Of a stretch of DNA of 64,000 bases, positions 5,049 to 64,000 are shown piece after piece (the stretch's first letter is position 1; every line of letters starts with the position of its first letter). Source of the DNA: Roridomyces roridus. Lineage: Eukaryota; Basidiomycota; Agaricomycetes; Agaricales; Mycenaceae. The stretch lies in contig JARKIF010000003.1 in NCBI GenBank assembly GCA_029378245.1, positions 3,286,001-3,350,000 of the forward strand. The letters run 5' to 3'. The notes under the pieces are model-generated. The model was not told where the DNA came from and did not search any database. It was given only the letters and a program-made list of their open reading frames with translations. Both the position numbers and the translations under genes were made by a program.

Positions 5049-6373
5049 GCCATGGCACTAGGGCACCGTGCCGCCTTTGGGCCAGAGATTTGAATTGCGG
5101 ACTCTCTCTGTAGTAATGTGGTCTCTGTTAATTATTGTATTTCTCGGATGCGGGGCAGGACAGCTGGTAAGGACAACACCGCGAGGCGGCCAGCGTGGGT
5201 GGAGCCAGCTAGCCAAAGACCCTGATGCATCCGTTGCAAATGAACTACGGGCGGCCTGGAACGCCGAAGCAGCAACAATGAGTGGGGCCTGACTGGTTGT
5301 ATACATATTGCGCTGGAACTGGCCAAGGGTGGGACTATTCAGGGGTACTACTAATAAGTATGGAGGTTGCAAGTCTCTGGACTAATAGCGTAGACGGATC
5401 AGCAACAAATTATAGCACAGAACAAGAGGTAAAGAAAGGAAATAGTTTGTGTGGGGAAAGCTGTATTCGGAATTCGAAATATATGTAGACAAGAGGTGAC
5501 TGATGTGAGGCTGAGTAATTCAAAGAAATGAAACTAGATTGCGAGACAGCCAAGATGAGGGTAGGTAGGGGAGCGGATACTTTGAGGTTTTGTCCAATGT
5601 CCAACAAGGTATTCAATTGCCGCTGTCGCTCCACCAGGGCGACCACGAGCGCCTTCAGCTTGGGACACTGGAAGCAGTCGGAACGGTGATTGCCACCGTA
5701 ATTAAGGCACTGAACTGGATCCGAGCAGGAGGACGGATGCGACGATGTGATAGGTTTGGCACAGGCACCACAAGTAGGCGTCTCCACGGTCCGGCGCGCC
5801 TTCGCGTGTAGCACCCCTAACATTGATGGACAGATGCGGAGATGGGGAAGGCCTCTGGCAACAGTCGGGCTGCTGGAACCAGGGATCTGCTGGGCCCAAG
5901 GGAGACACGGGAGGCGAAGGCGGGCCCCCGAGAGGAGAGGAGAAGATGGTCAGGAGCGCTAGCCTCCGTCCAATTTTGTGGGAGCGCGGAAATAGAGGGC
6001 CAAAAGGATTGGATGCCTTGGGAGCTGCAAGATAATCAATTTTTGATAGCAAGATGGGAGAGAATCTTGCATAGTTCCGAGCCGTTTCAGGGTGCCTCTG
6101 GGTTCCTCCGAGTCGGGCCTCCTTGTCAGCGCGAGTTGCCACCCAGCAACATGGTTACTAGGGTTATTGAGTCTTGACAGGATAGGAGGGTCGCCAGCGA
6201 TATATGGTCTTGCTGATTCAAGGCGAGTGGAGCGTCTGGCGACTCTGGGATGCATCGGGAGACGTTGGGGGAAACGACAAGTGCAATCTTGGTTGCACTT
6301 GTTGTGCCCCCATCAGTCACTGAGTCACGACACCCTTGTCCTTCACCACGACGCAGCTCCCGGCCATCCAGCC
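5049..6373. other. Intergenic, with one dispersed repeat
   Basis: No gene is supported here. Positions 5191-5290 resemble 28586-28690: both begin with the same 19 bases (cagcgtgggtggagccagc) and share further blocks ending in GAGCAGCAAC or AAGCAGCAAC. This suggests two copies of an old dispersed repeat. Several overlapping ORFs at 5700-6250 look like shadows of GC-rich sequence. Confidence 0.4.
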
Positions 6374-55308: not shown

Positions 55309-56051
55309 CACGGCGGATAAATCCCTGTCATTTGGCCGATGAAAACTCCTGTCATTTGCCCACCTACCGGGGCTGTCATTTGGCTCCCCACTTAGCCGAG
55401 CTCTTTGTTCCACTGTTTGAGTATCTGCTGGGCCAAAGCTCAAGTGCCTCAAGGCAGCCTCGTGGCTTGCAAAGACATGAATTTCTGAAAGAATAGCTCC
55501 GGTACCAGACGGCTTTTAATGTGCCGGACTCCGGTCTATCATATATGCTAGTTCTGCCGGTACACGGCCCATGCTTGCCGGGTAAATCAACCCATGTCAG
55601 AGCCCTGGGTCACACAAAGGGCCCTGATCCGACGCCATAGCTCTTTCAGTTCGAGTCGTCTTCGTTGATTTTTTGCTGATTTGAACCTCGGCAAGGCATC
55701 TGCAGCACAATTCAACCATAATGTTCACGCAGGCAATGCCCGTTCAGTTATCTGTCCTTGGTATGATGGCCAACATACAGGTATTCAAACAGAACAAGCG
55801 AATACTTTGGTTGATTCAACATGTCCTACATCCCGGCTGCCCGCGGCTCGATGAGCTCAAATACTTGTGTAACCGGACTTCAAAGGAAAAAGAATGGTGT
55901 TAAGGCCACGAGGCAGCCTCGTGGCATCCGTTGGAGGCCCAAGCAAAGGGTTTGCCGAGAGGACAAAGGAGACTCAGCCAAATGACAGACCCATGACAAA
56001 CCAAATGTCAACCGAGTGACTTTGGCAGATGACAAGCTTTTATCCGCCGTG
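55309..56051. mobile_element. 743-bp CACTA-like non-autonomous element
   Basis: The ends share the 13-bp inverted repeat CACGGCGGATAAA and are flanked by AGA (55306-55308 and 56052-56054). TGTCATTTG occurs three times close to the left end, and inverted relatives (CAAATGACA, CAAATGTCA) occur at the right end, like CACTA subterminal transposase-binding repeats. It interrupts the Copia RNase H frame, which becomes continuous again (DKPS then TLYVDNQS) when the element is ignored. No ORF of transposase size. Confidence 0.8.
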
Positions 56052-57087
56052 AGACGGCTTGTCCACCGTGTACCCGAACTCTTGGAAAAGATTGCGGAGG
56101 TACATGATCTCCATGCCCGCCGAGCACGCCGCGACATATTCTGCCTCAGTAGTCGACAGAGTAACGATCGTCTGCAAGCGGCTCGACCAACTGACGGCAC
56201 CGGTTCCGATCTTGACGACCATCCCAGAAGTAGACCGCCCGTTGTCTGGATTTCCTCCGTGGTCCGCATCCGAGTAAGTGGTGAACATGTCGTCAGTCGG
56301 AGAATTTGCCGGTGAGTAAGTGAGTTTCATGTCGAGGGTACCCTTCAGGTAGCGCAGGAGATGTTTGAGAGCCCTCCAGTGGATCGGACCTGGGTTGGCG
56401 TTGAAACGGCATAGAACGCTGATGGTCTGTGCGACGTCGGCGCGGGTGACATTTGCGAGGTAAGTCAGTGCCCCGGTAGCATTCGCGTAGGGCTTATCCT
56501 GCATGTATGCAATGTCCTCCGGAGTTGTTGCGCACATGGACTCGGAAAGCTTCACGGCGGGGTCCATTGGCGTACGGTAGGCCTAAAGGTCGAGGTTCAC
56601 GTTTCAGATCAGTCAGCCGTCAGACTGACATCGGCTAGGTCGGGTTTACTCGGCGATTGCGCTCTCTTGCTTCCCCAATACTAGGGACACCTAGGGACAC
56701 CTGCGGATCCGTCTCTTCTCGCTCCTTCCTCGACAAGCAGGAATATCACCCGTGCTTGATGCTAGATCAAGACACGACGCAGGTCGGACCCTCGGAAGAA
56801 ACCTCAGGCCTCAACTTCCGCGGCGGCCCGCCTCGGCGGCATCGAAATTGTCCCCGCCGAGTGCGCTGACGGGGCGAAAAATGAAGGTGTCTCACACTTC
56901 GGTGTTCGGTGTAGTTTCTTGCAATATACACACGGTCTGCATATTTTTCTCACCTCAATCCCGGGCAAGCGCAAATCACAGTCATATAAGTTTTGAGGGA
57001 ATTTGGCCATGACAAACTATAAGAACTCAAATTAAAAAGTAGTACTATGTATAACTGAATCAATGTGAGCTGTTCTATTTCTCTCCC

Positions 57088-59455
57088 TAGTCAGATTCGT
57101 CGGCACTGTCCTCCACATCAGACTCGGGGTGAAGATTCGTGAGACCCAAGTCACGACAGCGTCTGGAGCACGCGTGCTGCTCGACAAACTTATTAATACC
57201 ATCTTGGCCATTGTCGCCGACACCAGAGGCACTGCAGAAAGCATTCAGAGTCCAAACTGCTGAGGAACAAATTCACATACCCGCCGGAGGTGTGCGTCAT
57301 GAGGTCAAACAAAACCTGTGAGGCTTGACCGTTTGCGATGACAGCCTTCGTAGCTGAGAACGGTAGATGAGGACGGCATGATTTTGGTTAGTGATTGGCC
57401 TACTTTGAATATCGGCAAGAACAGTGGACTCAGCGCTGTTCTGGAAGATGTAGTGAGCGAAACAATTAAGAATATTGCCGAGTTTGCTGTTTGAATGGTT
57501 TGGGTGTTCGTCGGTTCCACTCCACTTGACTACATGTCCCGGGCGGAAGGGCTCTGCCAGCCAGACCATGTGCGACGCTGCAGCCACGGCTTCCTCAGAG
57601 GTATACCCAGAAGCCTCGCACGGCGCGTCATTTGCCTGGCCAGGCACTTCCACCATGAGAGTGCAGTCAGTGACAGACAGATCTGGATGGAAAATTAATA
57701 CCGAGTTGTTCTAGAGCTCGAGTTTGGGAAAGGAATCAGAATTACCATCACCAATGTCCACTTGGCGCTCCTCTGCCAGCGCTTTGAACTCGGTGAGATA
57801 AGTGACCACCTCAAGGAGACGTTCCGCCTCCTTCTGCGTCTCACACGCGTTCTCGTCCAAAGTGACTCGGTCCCGGCCTCGGCCAACGTTGGAGAATCTC
57901 TTCATGGCGAGGACGGTGCCATGATAGAAACCCTGTCGCTGCAATATGCATATCGAAGGAAAATAAACTTGGGAGAGATCCGAACCTTGTACACATTTTG
58001 TGATGCCCCCTGCGCGACAAGCTCCTTCCCAATCTGACACTTCTCGAACACCGTATCTGCATCATTGAGATTCGGCCACAAGGTCTGGATGACGGCCTCA
58101 TCGGTGTTGAGTTCAACAGTTGCCAATGCAACAGAGACAGTAGTAAAAGTGCCTGCAGGGCGAATAATAGACTTGAGGGGCGCTATCTTGGATGGAAGTG
58201 CTGAGAGAAGAGGTCAACATGGGAACATGGTTACAAGTAAAATGGGACGCACGGCTGGCACGAGACTTCTTCGTTGGCCCGCTGTCTGCCTCGCCATCCA
58301 AAGTGCGCTTCAATAGCTTCTTCTGGTCGGCAAGTGGCAGCATGAAGGGAGGCGGCGCGCATTTGAAGTGATCAACAAACTGGACAAATTTTAGTGTGAG
58401 TTCGGGGGCAGAAACTGATAGACAGTACTTGCCTCCTGGAGCCGGAATCGAACTTCAATGTAAACGTAGGTCCCTTTAAGCTTGACGTCGATGGGAGTAG
58501 AGAAACATTTCTCCCGCTGTGTATTGAACGTCGAGTTGTGCACGTCGAAAAATTCACCGATTGTTCCCAGCGTGCTGTTTGGTTCAAAGGTCAAGTTCTT
58601 GTGAAACCGGAATTTGAGATATTCCCTTGTCGATTGATCAGCAAGGCACGTAACCCTCGAGGGAGCTGGATACATACACGGTTATGCTCTCGTTGCAGTC
58701 TTTGTCCCAATCCGGTTTCCATCTCAAGAGAAGCGTCGCCATGACCTCTGTAAAAGAGCAGCAGTATTAATATGGGATTGCACTGAATCCAAAAAAACTC
58801 ACCATCAAATGGAGTTGATTCATCGAATTGTTGAGCAGACGATCCCAGCGCACCCGTTACGCTCGAACCGGGATGAACTGGAATCATAAAGACATAGATC
58901 TGACGGATGGCCGCGTGAGACATGGCTCCGTTGTGTGCAGCGGGTTTGTTGACAGAACCCTTCCGTTGCAACCGTTGGGCTGTAAGCTCTCTCATCTGGT
59001 CAGTGCGAGTCTCAAGGCGGTTCTCTTTCGGGATATTATGCAGCGGAATCCGGGGGGTAGCTGACCCTGATCCCACGGCCGTGCCATCGGAAGAACCATC
59101 TATATGACAAGGCACTTGAAGGTGAGTGCAAGGATGAGAGACAGAGGTCAGCGAGACACACTTTTGTCCTTGTTAAGTGCCATGTTGCACAGTCCACAGT
59201 AGACTCCGACAAGAAATTTGATGAGCGCGCTGCATCCCTGGCATTGTCTCGTTTGCTGCAAAGAGAATTAGTATTGTGCGGCAGGAAAGAAACAGGACAT
59301 ACAAGGATGTCTTGACGCTCCTGGTCGCTCGAGGACCTGCACAGCGCGGTACATTTGGAACAGAGACCGGGGGACGCCTTGGCTGGATAGAGCGCCCCGC
59401 AGCATTCCGTCGGGTTGTCTGGATTGGTGCAGATTTGAGTGTTGTCCTCGGCCAT
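57088..59455 (-). CDS. Alpha-kinase (MHCK/eEF2K family) inside transposon
   Basis: The start at 59455 gives MAEDNTQICTNPDNPTECCG and a Cys-rich N-terminal region with repeated CxxC pairs (CSKC, CQGC, CGLC), probably zinc-binding. A Ser/Gln-rich linker and a beta-rich segment (VKLKGTYVYIEVRFRLQE) follow. The kinase domain begins around CQIGKELVAQGASQNVYK. The ATP-binding Lys is in TVLAMKRF and the catalytic Asp in STVLADIQ. The C-terminal Gly-rich loop is GVGDNGQDGI, followed by a His/Cys motif (HACSRRC) of the alpha-kinase zinc site, and an acidic tail to the stop at 57088. About ten introns; phase is continuous at all junctions I followed except one near 58680, which is unresolved. Alpha-kinases phosphorylate Ser/Thr in targets such as elongation factor 2 or myosin heavy chain; the target here is unknown. 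Its position inside a TIR element makes it apparent cargo. Confidence 0.8.
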
Positions 59456-60031
59456 AAGTGTGAGCAGAAAGGAGTGGGTTTTGCAAGAGAATGTGGGGGC
59501 AAACAATGATATTGGACAACCAAGAGAATGTAGAAAGATATTTAAGCTCGGCTGCGGGGGGTGGGGTGGGTGTGGCGGTCACCGATTGTCGTTGGAGTCC
59601 TCAGCCATCAGAGTTTCCCCATGCACTAATGACGTCGAAACGGAGCTGTGAGCAGTCTAGAGTTGAGACGTCCAGGACGAACTGCAGGATGCAAATTCCG
59701 AGGGGGACAAAGCAGAGATGATGGTAGGCACGAAGAGACCGATCAACCCTGGTGGATCAAGTGCGGTCTTGATCTCAACTCTCACTTGTACACCACATCA
59801 AAACAACTCTTCGGCTACCTCTGGACGGTTCATGGGGCCACTGACGACAGAGAATATGCTCACCAGTGACACGAATGACGTGGATAGATCCCTCAGTACT
59901 ATGACCTCAACCACACCTCATCGTAGTCGTAGGACGCACTCAAAAACATCGGGTTGAAGTCAAGACTGCATCAATTTCTTCCCAATCAACCCACTGCCTC
60001 TCATTGAAATTCACCCACTCTCCTTTCTTTA
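59456..60031. promoter_or_regulatory. Divergent promoter region inside the transposon
   Basis: 576 bp separate the start codons of the minus-strand alpha-kinase and plus-strand transposase. It includes a G-rich stretch near 59552-59580. No clear TATA box was found for either gene. Both genes must be expressed from here or from the surrounding Copia DNA. Confidence 0.4.
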
Positions 60032-61591
60032 ATGCCAAATCCCGGTGGGAACAATGGCCATGACAATGGTGATCGTATGTCTTGTTTGCCCTCTCGTTCT
60101 TCAACTACTGGCTAATTCGCAAGTCTCTCAAGCCCCCGACGATCTCCCAGCTCTACTGCAAGGCTACGCTTCCAAGAAGGTTCCTCTCAAACGCCGGGTA
60201 GAGCAACTTAGGGAGAAGAACTACCACATCAGGTCTGAAGTTCTCGCTATGAACTTCCCTTTACTCGGCCTGAATAAAACTATCCCAGCCTCACCACTCT
60301 CAAAAAACTCAACAAACAGTACAGTATAATCTCGCCGAGACGCCCACCCCCTGAACATATTGCCACAACACTCATTGCGGCCGAGATGGCTCAGAATATT
60401 ACTGGTAGCAACAGTCCGAACACCATTCAACTGCGCGTTGCCCTCCAGACTGGCGTAGCTCTTCCTCGGTGTGTTTTCTCATTGTACATTATGTTGTTCA
60501 ACTCGTTGAATATGGCAGTGCTGTGGTGCGCGGTACCATGAAGGCTCTTGATCCTGAGGGTCCTTCTCGCAGGTTCCCGGCAAACGCCCGGTCAAGGACC
60601 GCTCCGTGATGACCGACAACGCCGTCTTCTATGAAATACATTTTGATGGGCACGAGAAGCTTAACTTCAAGGCCTTGGAGATGGGTCGGGCGGGAATTGA
60701 CATATACGGCGGGCGCTGCCACGGTAGCGGTCTCATTGCCCTTTGCGGGTTGTTCCCAACGCGAGATGTGGGGTCACCGTCGGTCATTTGTATCTGGACC
60801 TTGCTGAATCCTTTGGTTGTACGTGCTCTGGATTACCTCCTTTTTTCCCAATCATTATACCACTCTAGATATCCCGGTTCAAAATACCGTGGACGGGGGA
60901 ACCGAAACTCGCTACATGACTCAGTTGCACAAGGAGCAGCGGTGAGTCCCTATGTTCTCCCTTGTGGTCAACCTTACAGATGCTCAGTACACACTTTCTG
61001 CGTGGATTCACTCTTGAGGACGCCCCCGCCGTCGTTGCTTTGCCAAGCACGGACAACATTCCAATTGAGTCTCTCTGGAGCTATCTCCGCAACTTCAGTG
61101 GGCGAGATCTTAAGGCCGCCATCCTTCTTGGTAAAACTGAGAACTATATGAACGTCACGGACGACGTACACATGTGCGTTTATTTTTCCCTGCTGTTGTA
61201 CATGTCCTAACTGGGCATCTGGAGCCACCTCTTCCATTGGCTTTGGTCTCGGATCGTTCAGAATGCTGTTGATCTCTTTGTGGAGTACTGGAATACACAC
61301 AAGACTCGCAACCAACGCAACAAAGCCCTACCCTCGGGGGTGTCACCGCAGGACGTTTTTGACAAACCTCAAAACTTTGGCCTCGAGTTTGGAGGAATCG
61401 AAGTTGACCGCGAGTTTGTACGTGAGCTGCGGAAGACTCTACCCAAGTCCCGGGAGGAGTGCTACCGATGGGTTCCGGAGGAGTTTGAGGTGCAGGCAGT
61501 GGCGGCGTACGAGCACCTGGGAAGTCCAGCCTTGAGGATCACCGAGGGCTGGACAATCTTCTCTCGAATGCTTGCAATTTTGGAGGCATAG
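60032..61591 (+). pseudogene. DDE integrase-like transposase, two apparent frameshifts
   Basis: The start at 60032 gives MPNPGGNNGHDNGD. After an intron come PDDLPALLQGYASKKVPLKR and LKKLNKQYS. The catalytic core shows the expected order: Asp in IHFDGHEKLNFKAL (60645-60647), Asp in NTVDGGTETRYM (60892-60894) and Glu in NIPIESLWSYLRNF (61067-61069). The C-terminal part (VEYWNTHKTRNQRNKALPSG, then WTIFSRMLAILEA) ends at 61591. This is the abundant Agaricomycete family with an RVE/integrase-type core. Four introns join in phase. Two single-base shifts are needed: between RRFP and GKRP near 60575, and before RVVPNARCGV near 60740. This copy is therefore probably dead, or the consensus has errors. 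It is the likely mobiliser of the element, or of its relatives in trans. Confidence 0.7.
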
Positions 61592-62528
61592 AATACTTAG
61601 GTTGTACATACTATGTCAATGGTATAGACACAGTGGATCACTGAAACCTTTTGCATGCATGTGTATGGATGGGTACGTATGGCACTGCCGGTGATGAAGC
61701 GAACGGCGTTCGAATAAGTAGACGCCGTGTTGAGTCAGTGTAGCGGGAAGCAAAGGTGAAGACCAAAGTTTTCGATTCGGCAACTCGGAGAACTGTGATT
61801 CCGATCAATCATTGACGGGATATGTGATCCGAGTGACCGAGCAAACCCGAAGTACATAGCCGATGTCAGTCTGACGGCTGACTGATCTGAAACGTGAACC
61901 TCGACCTTTAGGCCTACCGTAATACGTTGGCGTCAAAACGGGGTTGCAATCGGACATGCCGAAACGCTCGAGAACGTCCAGAATGTATTGACGTTGCGAG
62001 AGGGAGATGGTCCGATTGGGACGGTCACGAATGACCTCGACTCCGAGAAGGAATGTAGTGGGGCCAAGGTCGCGAAGCTTGAACGCCTTCTTGAGGTCGT
62101 CCTTGAGTTGTTGAATGCCGGTTTTGCTCTTGGACGCGATGGTTATGTCATCGACAAACACCGGCACGAGGATCCGGTCTTCACCTCGCTTCCACACCCA
62201 CACACTATGCTCACACCGAACGCACTCGAAACCCAGCTCGCGCAAGGTCTTGTCCAACTTTTGGTGCCAAATCCTGGACACTTGTTTCAGTCCGTAGATG
62301 GATTTCACCAGCTTCCACACCCAGCTCAAATCCTTCTGCACGAAACCTTCAGGCTGGCGCATGTAGACGTCGGTGTCGATCTCCCCATTCAAGAACGCGG
62401 ACGATATGTCGACACTTTCGAGCTCAAGGTCCTCAAGGGCTGCGATGGCGATGATGGTGCGGAGAGCTGCCCATTTGGGAGTCGGTGCGAATGTATCGTC
62501 GAAATCCAATCCCGGGCGTTGATGATTT

Positions 62529-64000
62529 CCCCAGCTGGTACAGTACATACTTTGCAAAAGATAGTGCTAGGTGGCAGACCATAGTTTTGCAAAAGGAAGT
62601 CGCTAGTGGGTGTACAGCCGCCTGGAGCCTATATATGGTTGTGGCTAGCCGCAGATAGCGGGCGGCTAATGAACTAGTTGACCGGCTGGCACGGCACATC
62701 CGGCACAGGCTATATATGCTATTGAAAATTGATTTTCAGGTATTTTCCACTGCACATATTTAAAATGTATGAGAAATAGCGAGAAACACATTGATGGCTT
62801 CTCCCAGTTGTGATAACAATCCTGAAAGAGTAACCGGCACATTTGGCCCAGCGGCATGCATCAAAAAAAGATGGGGGATCAAAAAATCGAAGTTGTAGAG
62901 CCGCTCGAGAGCTCAAGGAGTCGCTCACGTTGTTTTACATCAAACTGATTGACTGGCCCGCAAAATGCAAAATACTTTTTCAGAGGCAAGTCTTTGGAAA
63001 CCAACCACCAGGTTTTGAAGGCTGAGTGTGTCCCAAGGCTTCATACCAAAGGAACCATTATGTTTTCCAACCTCAGAGTGGTATCATCAACTCTGAATTC
63101 AAAAAATGTTTGACATTTCGGATGCTATTCCCGATTGGGCCACTACCCTTTCCTCCCAAAAAGGCAATTTTCGGCTTTTGCACTCCCATTGGATCTGCCT
63201 CTAGGATCCTTAACAAACTTTACTGACAACAATTCTTCTTTCAATCCTTCCACATGTTTTGGCAACAATTGTGCTACCACTTTGTGCATATACCAGCTGT
63301 AAGAGTGGAAACGGTCTGTGCATTTTTGCACCTTTGATATCATTTCCATGTAGTTTCATGCTTTTGTGATCTGTGAGCTTAGCATGTTTATGTACCACTT
63401 AGGATGCTAGATCTCAAATATCAGTCCAGATCTAAGCCATGGGAGAGTGTTATAAGTGAATGAGATAAAAGGTAGATTTAGGTACAGCTATTGATATTAG
63501 CAGTTGATAACCCGATCCTTAGCACCCCAAGACTTCAATGAGTAGTATCAATGACCTTTGAAGTCCCTTACCATAAGGTGAACAGTAGGCCAGGTGAAAG
63601 TGGAAAAAGTCATCAAATCCCATTTTCACTATATTGCTCATGCTCTTGATTTTTTCTCTGTGGTTGAAGCGAATGGGACAAGTACCCTAGAGTATAGGAA
63701 GCCAGCACAGCCAGGATCAGCTCCATACCTGCACAGAATGTAAAGTTATATGCATAGAGATTTTGTGATCATTTTGGATCATTCTGTTGATAGAAGACAA
63801 AGGGAGTGGAATCTGGGATATTTGAAGTCACCAATGAGGAAAGGGAGCTCAGGGGGTCCAGAAAATGTCCTTGATCATTAGGGTTGGTGGAGAATCCATG
63901 GAGTGTTGGTGGAGAATCCATGGAGTGTTGGTGGAGAATCCATTTGTTCAAGAGCTCCACTGGACATTTGACCAAATTCTTACCGTACAATCCTGCCAGA
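62529..64000. mobile_element. Unclassified insertion, only one end in window
   Basis: The Copia frame stops abruptly just upstream of GNHQRPG. The foreign side begins AGCTGGTACAGTACATAC, and a similar word GGCTGGCACGGCACATCC occurs at about 62680, suggesting terminal or subterminal repeats. The rest is AT-rich with short ORFs and no recognisable domain. The other end lies beyond 64000. Confidence 0.4.
63884..63944 (+). repeat. 22-bp tandem repeat, about 2.8 copies
   Basis: gttggtggagaatccatgga plus gt repeats in an uninterrupted row. It is in frame in a minus-strand ORF (63769-63990) that has no recognised domain. Confidence 0.9.

Follow-up and report, generated by a model that had tools for sequence, protein, structure and literature searches.

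The window, i.e., the whole stretch of 64,000 nucleotides of Roridomyces roridus DNA that was analysed, is located on contig C223 of an assembly of 90.8 Mb in 501 contigs. A whole transposon of 5,349 bp was identified at 56573..61921 (no strand assigned) with the ends TACGGTAGG...CCTACCGTA, which were common to four further copies on contigs C79, C57, C458 and C146. Comparison of the two ends showed a left terminal inverted repeat at 56573..56640 (plus strand) and a right one at 61854..61921 (minus strand), with arms of 68 nt matched at 67 of 68 positions (99% identity) and the outermost 65 bp perfect. The 64-bp repeats and sharp borders of the preliminary description were therefore essentially correct, with the borders off by a few bases. 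Next to the right repeat, a stretch of about 80 bp (61755-61836; positions 5185-5266 of the element) was also found on its own at many genomic sites, and it may be a separate small repeat.

The element was found within a Copia frame on the minus strand, with the 3' part of the frame at 56040..56565 and the 5' part, which includes the reverse transcriptase (RVT_2, PF07727, E 5e-56), at 61933..62566. In silico deletion of the element and the second duplication produced a single Copia frame of 388 aa over the junction, while control junctions shifted by 1 or 2 bases gave frames of at most 217 and 246 aa. In addition, Copia copies elsewhere in the genome (three at 96-97% and one at 86%) were ungapped across the insertion site, which agrees with the interruption of a Copia frame noted beforehand. 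The target duplication was ATTGGCG (7 bp) on the left (56566..56572) and A-TACG-TTGGCG, i.e., 7 bp with four extra bases, on the right (61922..61932). Exact duplications of 7 bp were present in four of the six copies of this family with both ends (TTCCGAG, ACCAGTA, CGGTGAG and CCTGGGA); the other two were the window copy and C57, which had no duplication. For a derivative on C24, 8 bp, CCTTGAAT, were common to both ends. Since four sister copies carry 7 bp, the preferred reading for the window is a 7-bp duplication whose right copy includes four additional bases, and TTGG alone, as first proposed, was dropped in favour of this rule; TTGG is only part of the full form ATTGGCG, which is split by TACG in one of its two copies. 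As an alternative for the window copy alone, the right end may simply read ...CCGTAATACG. Elsewhere in the window, no Pfam match at E 0.001 was obtained for nine open frames located at 6050-26783 (232-418 aa each, with overlaps between some of them).

The alpha-kinase gene of the element is located at 57087..59455 on the minus strand and was resolved into 11 exons encoding 612-613 aa. Exons 1 to 6 are at 59455-59303, 59255-59162, 59099-58803, 58747-58678, 58625-58433 and 58379-58253, while exons 7 to 11 are at 58200-57986, 57938-57746, 57682-57404, 57353-57281 and 57231-57087. The gene splices into an unbroken protein of 612 aa, and spliced alignment of the annotated database protein P0001 (613 aa, 99%) to the window recovered it with slightly shifted positions for two introns. 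The alpha-kinase domain (PF02816) was found at residues 374-590 of 612 (57156..58015 on the minus strand, introns included) with an E-value of 3.4e-24 and 86.4 bits against a cut-off of 21.3. Profile positions 1-185 of 185 were covered and the frame was intact, confirming that a near-complete alpha-kinase is carried by the element; no other Pfam domain was found in the protein up to E 0.1. Profile matches were also obtained with MHCK A (E 2.9e-9), eEF2K (E 5.1e-6), TRPM7 and ALPK1. The motifs K, E, DxQ, D and HT were invariant across six aligned kinases, and the residues of the kinase motifs presumably have the catalytic and zinc-binding roles assigned to them. Judged by its full-length domain and its catalytic and zinc motifs, the window protein qualifies as a predicted member of the alpha-kinase family. 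It shares with MHCK A, eEF2K, TRPM7 and ALPK1 a kinase domain with DIQ, D..HT and HxCxxxC motifs, but differs from them in lying inside a transposon and in having an N-terminal cysteine-rich stretch (59187..59455, minus strand; Cys 9, 18, 19, 32, 35, 39, 56, 59, 71 and 74) that is predicted to bind zinc. These cysteines were kept in the C146 copy, mostly in C334 and partly in C201. A predicted structure of the kinase, made from four sequences, was discarded (mean pLDDT 29.8). When about 8,000 of the best word-sharing candidates in the protein database were scored, the relatives of the kinase were P0001, P0002 and P0124 of R. roridus and one Mycena kentingensis protein.

The transposase gene (60032..61591, plus strand) has 7 exons by spliced alignment and lies head to head with the kinase gene, so the single transposase-like gene reported as divergent to the kinase was recovered; in the window its frame is broken twice, each time by a single base. 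It is nearly full-length compared with its relatives and carries the D, D and E motifs HFDGHEKL, TVDGGTET and PIESLW. The gene aligned unbroken in C79 (416 aa) and C146 (410 aa) and was split up by insertions in C458 and C57. The 576 bp between the two start codons (59456..60031, no strand assigned) are presumed to be a shared promoter region; the same gap in C146 is about 620 bp. A protein database search gave 217 transposase relatives (120 among the matches listed). The structure of a related transposase, P0004 of sister family A (see below), was modelled with a mean pLDDT of 81 and matched TnsB, MuA and retroviral integrases in predicted fold with a best E-value of 2.7e-5. The resemblance to these proteins is limited to 10-16% identity among the best 18 matches and to TM-scores of 0.2-0.3 by query length, perhaps from a different domain arrangement, and the present element is eukaryotic. 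Such a fold would fit insertion with a fixed stagger.

The DNA search with the whole element and its repeat (17 matches for the repeat) showed copies at C79, C57 and C458 with 98-99% identity and at C146 with 77% identity. Each of them had both repeats with a PF02816 match in between, the repeats of C146 being 79-87% identical to those of the window. The preliminary description had made its case depend on a second locus where the repeat encloses an alpha-kinase, and four such loci were found. The kinase was broken in C79 by one stop and a 3.9-kb insert and in C57 by a frameshift, while C458 keeps only the last 228 kinase residues. The C146 kinase (annotated as P0002) is open only with an extra intron of 364 bp that drops about 20 residues. 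Short or broken derivatives of the family were also found on C113 (1.2 kb), C201 (215-220 kb), C24, C449 and C458 (1493 kb). The C113 derivative (623442-624660) has both ends and a 7-bp duplication, and no part of it matched either gene. Its mobilisation was presumably in trans, and since it has moved, the kinase is not needed in cis. Another derivative of 1.9 kb (C390:263637-265568) has both ends and a transposase match but no kinase match.

Three further kinase-bearing families, A, B and C101, were identified, all with the ends TACGG..CCGTA and 6-bp duplications. Family A has five copies with 118-bp inverted repeats, three of which were compared over 3.4 kb and were 99.8% identical from a sharp border. 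Duplications were found in three of the five copies, on C442, C13 and one on C113 (GACCAG, GTAGAT and GTCATG). The C442 copy (5,221 bp, duplication GACCAG) has a perfect empty site on contig C482, which reads straight through. The copies at C113:735869-741212 and 747785-753133 had no duplication of their own. They are two inverted family-A elements 6.6 kb apart (C113:735869-753133) with doubled inner inverted repeats and outer flanks that both read ATCGCC, a pattern suggestive of a 17.3-kb composite that was mobilised as a whole. Family B has three copies with the ends TACGGTTTGCC and repeats of about 99 bp, and the one copy that was checked, on C13, showed the duplication GACATG. The C101 element is 2.77 kb long with 54-bp repeats, the duplication CACGAC and both genes partial. 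A one-off capture of the kinase was ruled out by the copies in the window's family, A, B and C101.

The features of these elements were compared with those of the IS3EU superfamily. In the available part of Kojima 2023 (PMC10045372), complete IS3EU families end in TA..TA with duplications that are usually 6 bp, and in that of Kojima 2025 (PMC12730594), IS3EU of rusts end in TAYGG..CCRTA with 6-bp duplications. The ends TACGG..CCGTA of the window's family, A, B and C101 agree with both descriptions. The inverted repeats, for which more than 30 bp are expected, were 65 bp (perfect) in the window, 118 bp in A, 26+39 bp in B and 54 bp in C101. The duplications were 6 bp in A (three of five copies), B (one checked) and C101, and 7 bp in the window's family (four of six copies). 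The DDE motifs, PF24764 and the TnsB/MuA/integrase-like fold agree with an IS3EU transposase, and the window element most likely belongs to this superfamily on these sequence features. PF24764 alone was dropped as a membership mark: a profile search of the same genome gave 74 matches, none of them at kinase loci, and the kinase-bearing group is thus not equivalent to PF24764 at large. With P0025, a closer transposase query, the stronger matches do fall at kinase loci.

According to the same passages of Kojima 2025 (PMC12730594), every IS3EU family that bears a TET gene has it between a transposase and an alpha-kinase in opposite orientation, and the alpha-kinase is mentioned twice there, both times in one passage. 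The elements described here resemble these TET-bearing IS3EU of rusts and Tuber indicum in their TAYGG..CCRTA ends, their repeats of more than 30 bp and the opposed transposase and alpha-kinase (in the window and in 16 of 17 pairs overall), and in the 6-bp duplications for A, B and C101 only. They differ in the mushroom host, the 7-bp duplications of the window's family and the lack of a TET/JBP gene between the two genes, where the gap (576 bp in the window, about 620 bp in C146) leaves no room for one. A TET/JBP gene in this position is not a defining feature of IS3EU itself. The available account of IS3EU/GingerRoot (PMC10045372) matches in TA..TA ends, the usual 6-bp duplications and a DDD/E transposase, and no mention of a kinase was found in that portion. 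A literature search that covered few subscription journals found no paper beyond PMC12730594, among texts partly accessible, that links an alpha-kinase to a named transposon superfamily. In accessible portions of other papers, alpha-kinases appear as a table row (PMC5295586), one gene of a table (PMC4164029) and one gene (PMC4150398). Overall, the element looks like a two-gene variant of an apparently known superfamily. The idea of an unrecognised accessory system holds only in part, as an alpha-kinase opposite an IS3EU transposase is already stated in the accessible text of PMC12730594.

A profile search of the genome with PF02816 gave at least 21 alpha-kinase matches. Fourteen of the 21 were clearly between such repeats (five in the window's family, five in A, three in B, and C101). 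With P0025 as query, a transposase match was found on the same stretch for 17 of the 21, namely these 14 and C201, C334:1494185 and C257. The distance between kinase and transposase was about 5 kb or less except in C79 and C57, where insertions push the genes further apart, and the two genes were in opposite orientation in 16 of the 17 pairs. The exception was C201, where they point the same way and a search for inverted repeats around the pair found none. The C334:1494185 kinase has a left repeat at 1489576 and a matching inverted arm at a distance of 26 kb. The P0025 query gave no transposase near the kinase at C20, C1, C301 and C469. The last three are copies of one unit (C1:2840200-2847600) with a weak alpha-kinase match, for which ends and inverted repeats were searched and not found; a distantly related P0004-like transposase was present 3.8 kb away on C1, with the same stretch on C469 and part of it on C301. 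Transposase matches without a kinase match were found on C480, C390 and C490, of which C480 is a copy of C201 whose match ends inside the kinase gene. Overall, most alpha-kinase genes found in this genome are accounted for by transposon carriage, the source proposed in the preliminary description, and the co-occurrence of kinase and transposase between terminal repeats that it asked for in other copies was seen in the window's family, A, B and C101. Since most alpha-kinase genes here adjoin related transposases, the kinase is likely a standing part of the element and not stray cargo.

For the analysis of selection, the window or C79 against C146 was the single pair that had diverged enough. 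The kinase of the window and C146 (586 codons) showed a dN of 0.129 and a dS of 0.791 with a ratio of 0.163 (95% bootstrap 0.125-0.212), being 0.122 in the kinase domain and 0.194 in the N-terminal part. The transposase of C79 and C146 (410 codons) had a dN/dS of 0.109 (0.075-0.155). Over alignable sites only, kinase exons of the diverged pair were 80.7% identical (1833 sites) against 71.3% for introns (508 sites). The kinase was thus shown to be under purifying selection between two diverged copies. Among young copies it looks relaxed, with a dN/dS of 0.60 for window-C79 and 0.89 for window-C57 on 9 and 12 changes. These relaxed ratios and the broken kinases of C79 and C57 would fit a captured host gene that rides passively, but a ratio of 0.16 over a dS of 0.79 and the recurrence of the kinase in several diverged families, opposite the transposase in 16 of 17 pairs, make a passive rider highly unlikely. 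The captured-cargo option of the preliminary description is disfavoured by these results together with the co-divergence below. Selection through the host, with a kinase that slows translation like eEF2 kinase or benefits the host in another way, was also considered. The match to eEF2 kinase is in line with this, although it was weaker than that to MHCK A (5.1e-6 against 2.9e-9); the presence of several copies, of one insertion with an empty site elsewhere in the assembly and of window-family copies that are often decayed, as for selfish genes, renders such a host function very improbable. The kinase is very probably a maintained component of the transposon.

Kinase and transposase distances were compared over the seven lineages with both proteins, i.e., the window, C146, A, B, C101, C201 and C334 (C257 and C1 were unusable), and showed a Mantel r of 0.88 that was reached in 5 of 5040 permutations. 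The window, C146 and C334, as well as A and C101, grouped together in both trees, while B and C201 were placed differently. The co-divergence is supportive and not decisive, because the window and C146 belong to one family, kinase distances were calculated from about 140-225 residues of the domain alone and only part of the C101 transposase is present. A kinase directed at the host, which would phosphorylate chromatin or silencing proteins and let the element escape silencing, a role of the kind proposed for the TET enzymes of IS3EU, is possible but rather unlikely. The available text of PMC12730594 proposes an action of the TET enzymes of IS3EU on DNA methylation in general, and the published TET genes beside alpha-kinases suggest that enzymes of this kind accumulate in the superfamily; binding to chromatin or to proteins is also conceivable for the cysteine-rich N-terminus. 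However, the kinase co-diverges with the transposase, and Pfam gives the kinase domain only, up to E 0.1. Unlike the TET genes, which move between transposon superfamilies according to the same partial source (PMC12730594), the kinase stays with the lineage of its own transposase, which favours the element's own transposase or end complex as the target.

The element is, with a little better than even confidence, an IS3EU-type cut-and-paste transposon in which the kinase is a conserved working part that controls the movement of the element by phosphorylating the transposase complex. On the basis of its motifs and of the fold predicted for a sister protein, the transposase would bring the inverted ends together and would cut and insert the element with a stagger of 6-7 bp. 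The 576-bp gap would drive both genes, the cysteine-rich N-terminus would bind zinc and guide the kinase, and the kinase would phosphorylate the element's own transposase or end complex, which is the least certain step. For short derivatives that carry neither gene, the two enzymes would be supplied in trans. We give somewhat less than an even chance to this action of the kinase on the transposase complex, which is a reasoned guess. Counted against this explanation are the broken kinases of C79, C57 and C458, the relaxed young pairs, the dispensability of the kinase in cis, the same orientation of the genes in C201, the mismatch of B and C201 between the trees and the four kinase loci without a P0025 transposase.

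In the accessible part of PMC4469406, alpha-kinases are described as highly expanded in rusts. It is tentatively suggested, with appreciable doubt, that the kinase is the second core gene of fungal IS3EU, that the expanded alpha-kinases of mushrooms and rusts are genes of transposons and that a transposon phosphorylates its own transposase complex. The present results offer a testable cause for many alpha-kinase genes of a basidiomycete, and they develop what the literature mentions only in passing into an argument that selection maintains a protein kinase within a DNA transposon. The role of a helper enzyme, in transposition control or against host defence, can be tested with family A, given its five almost identical copies and its clean empty site. 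Finally, most of the alpha-kinases found in this genome are transposon genes, and counts of gene families may score them as genes of the host.
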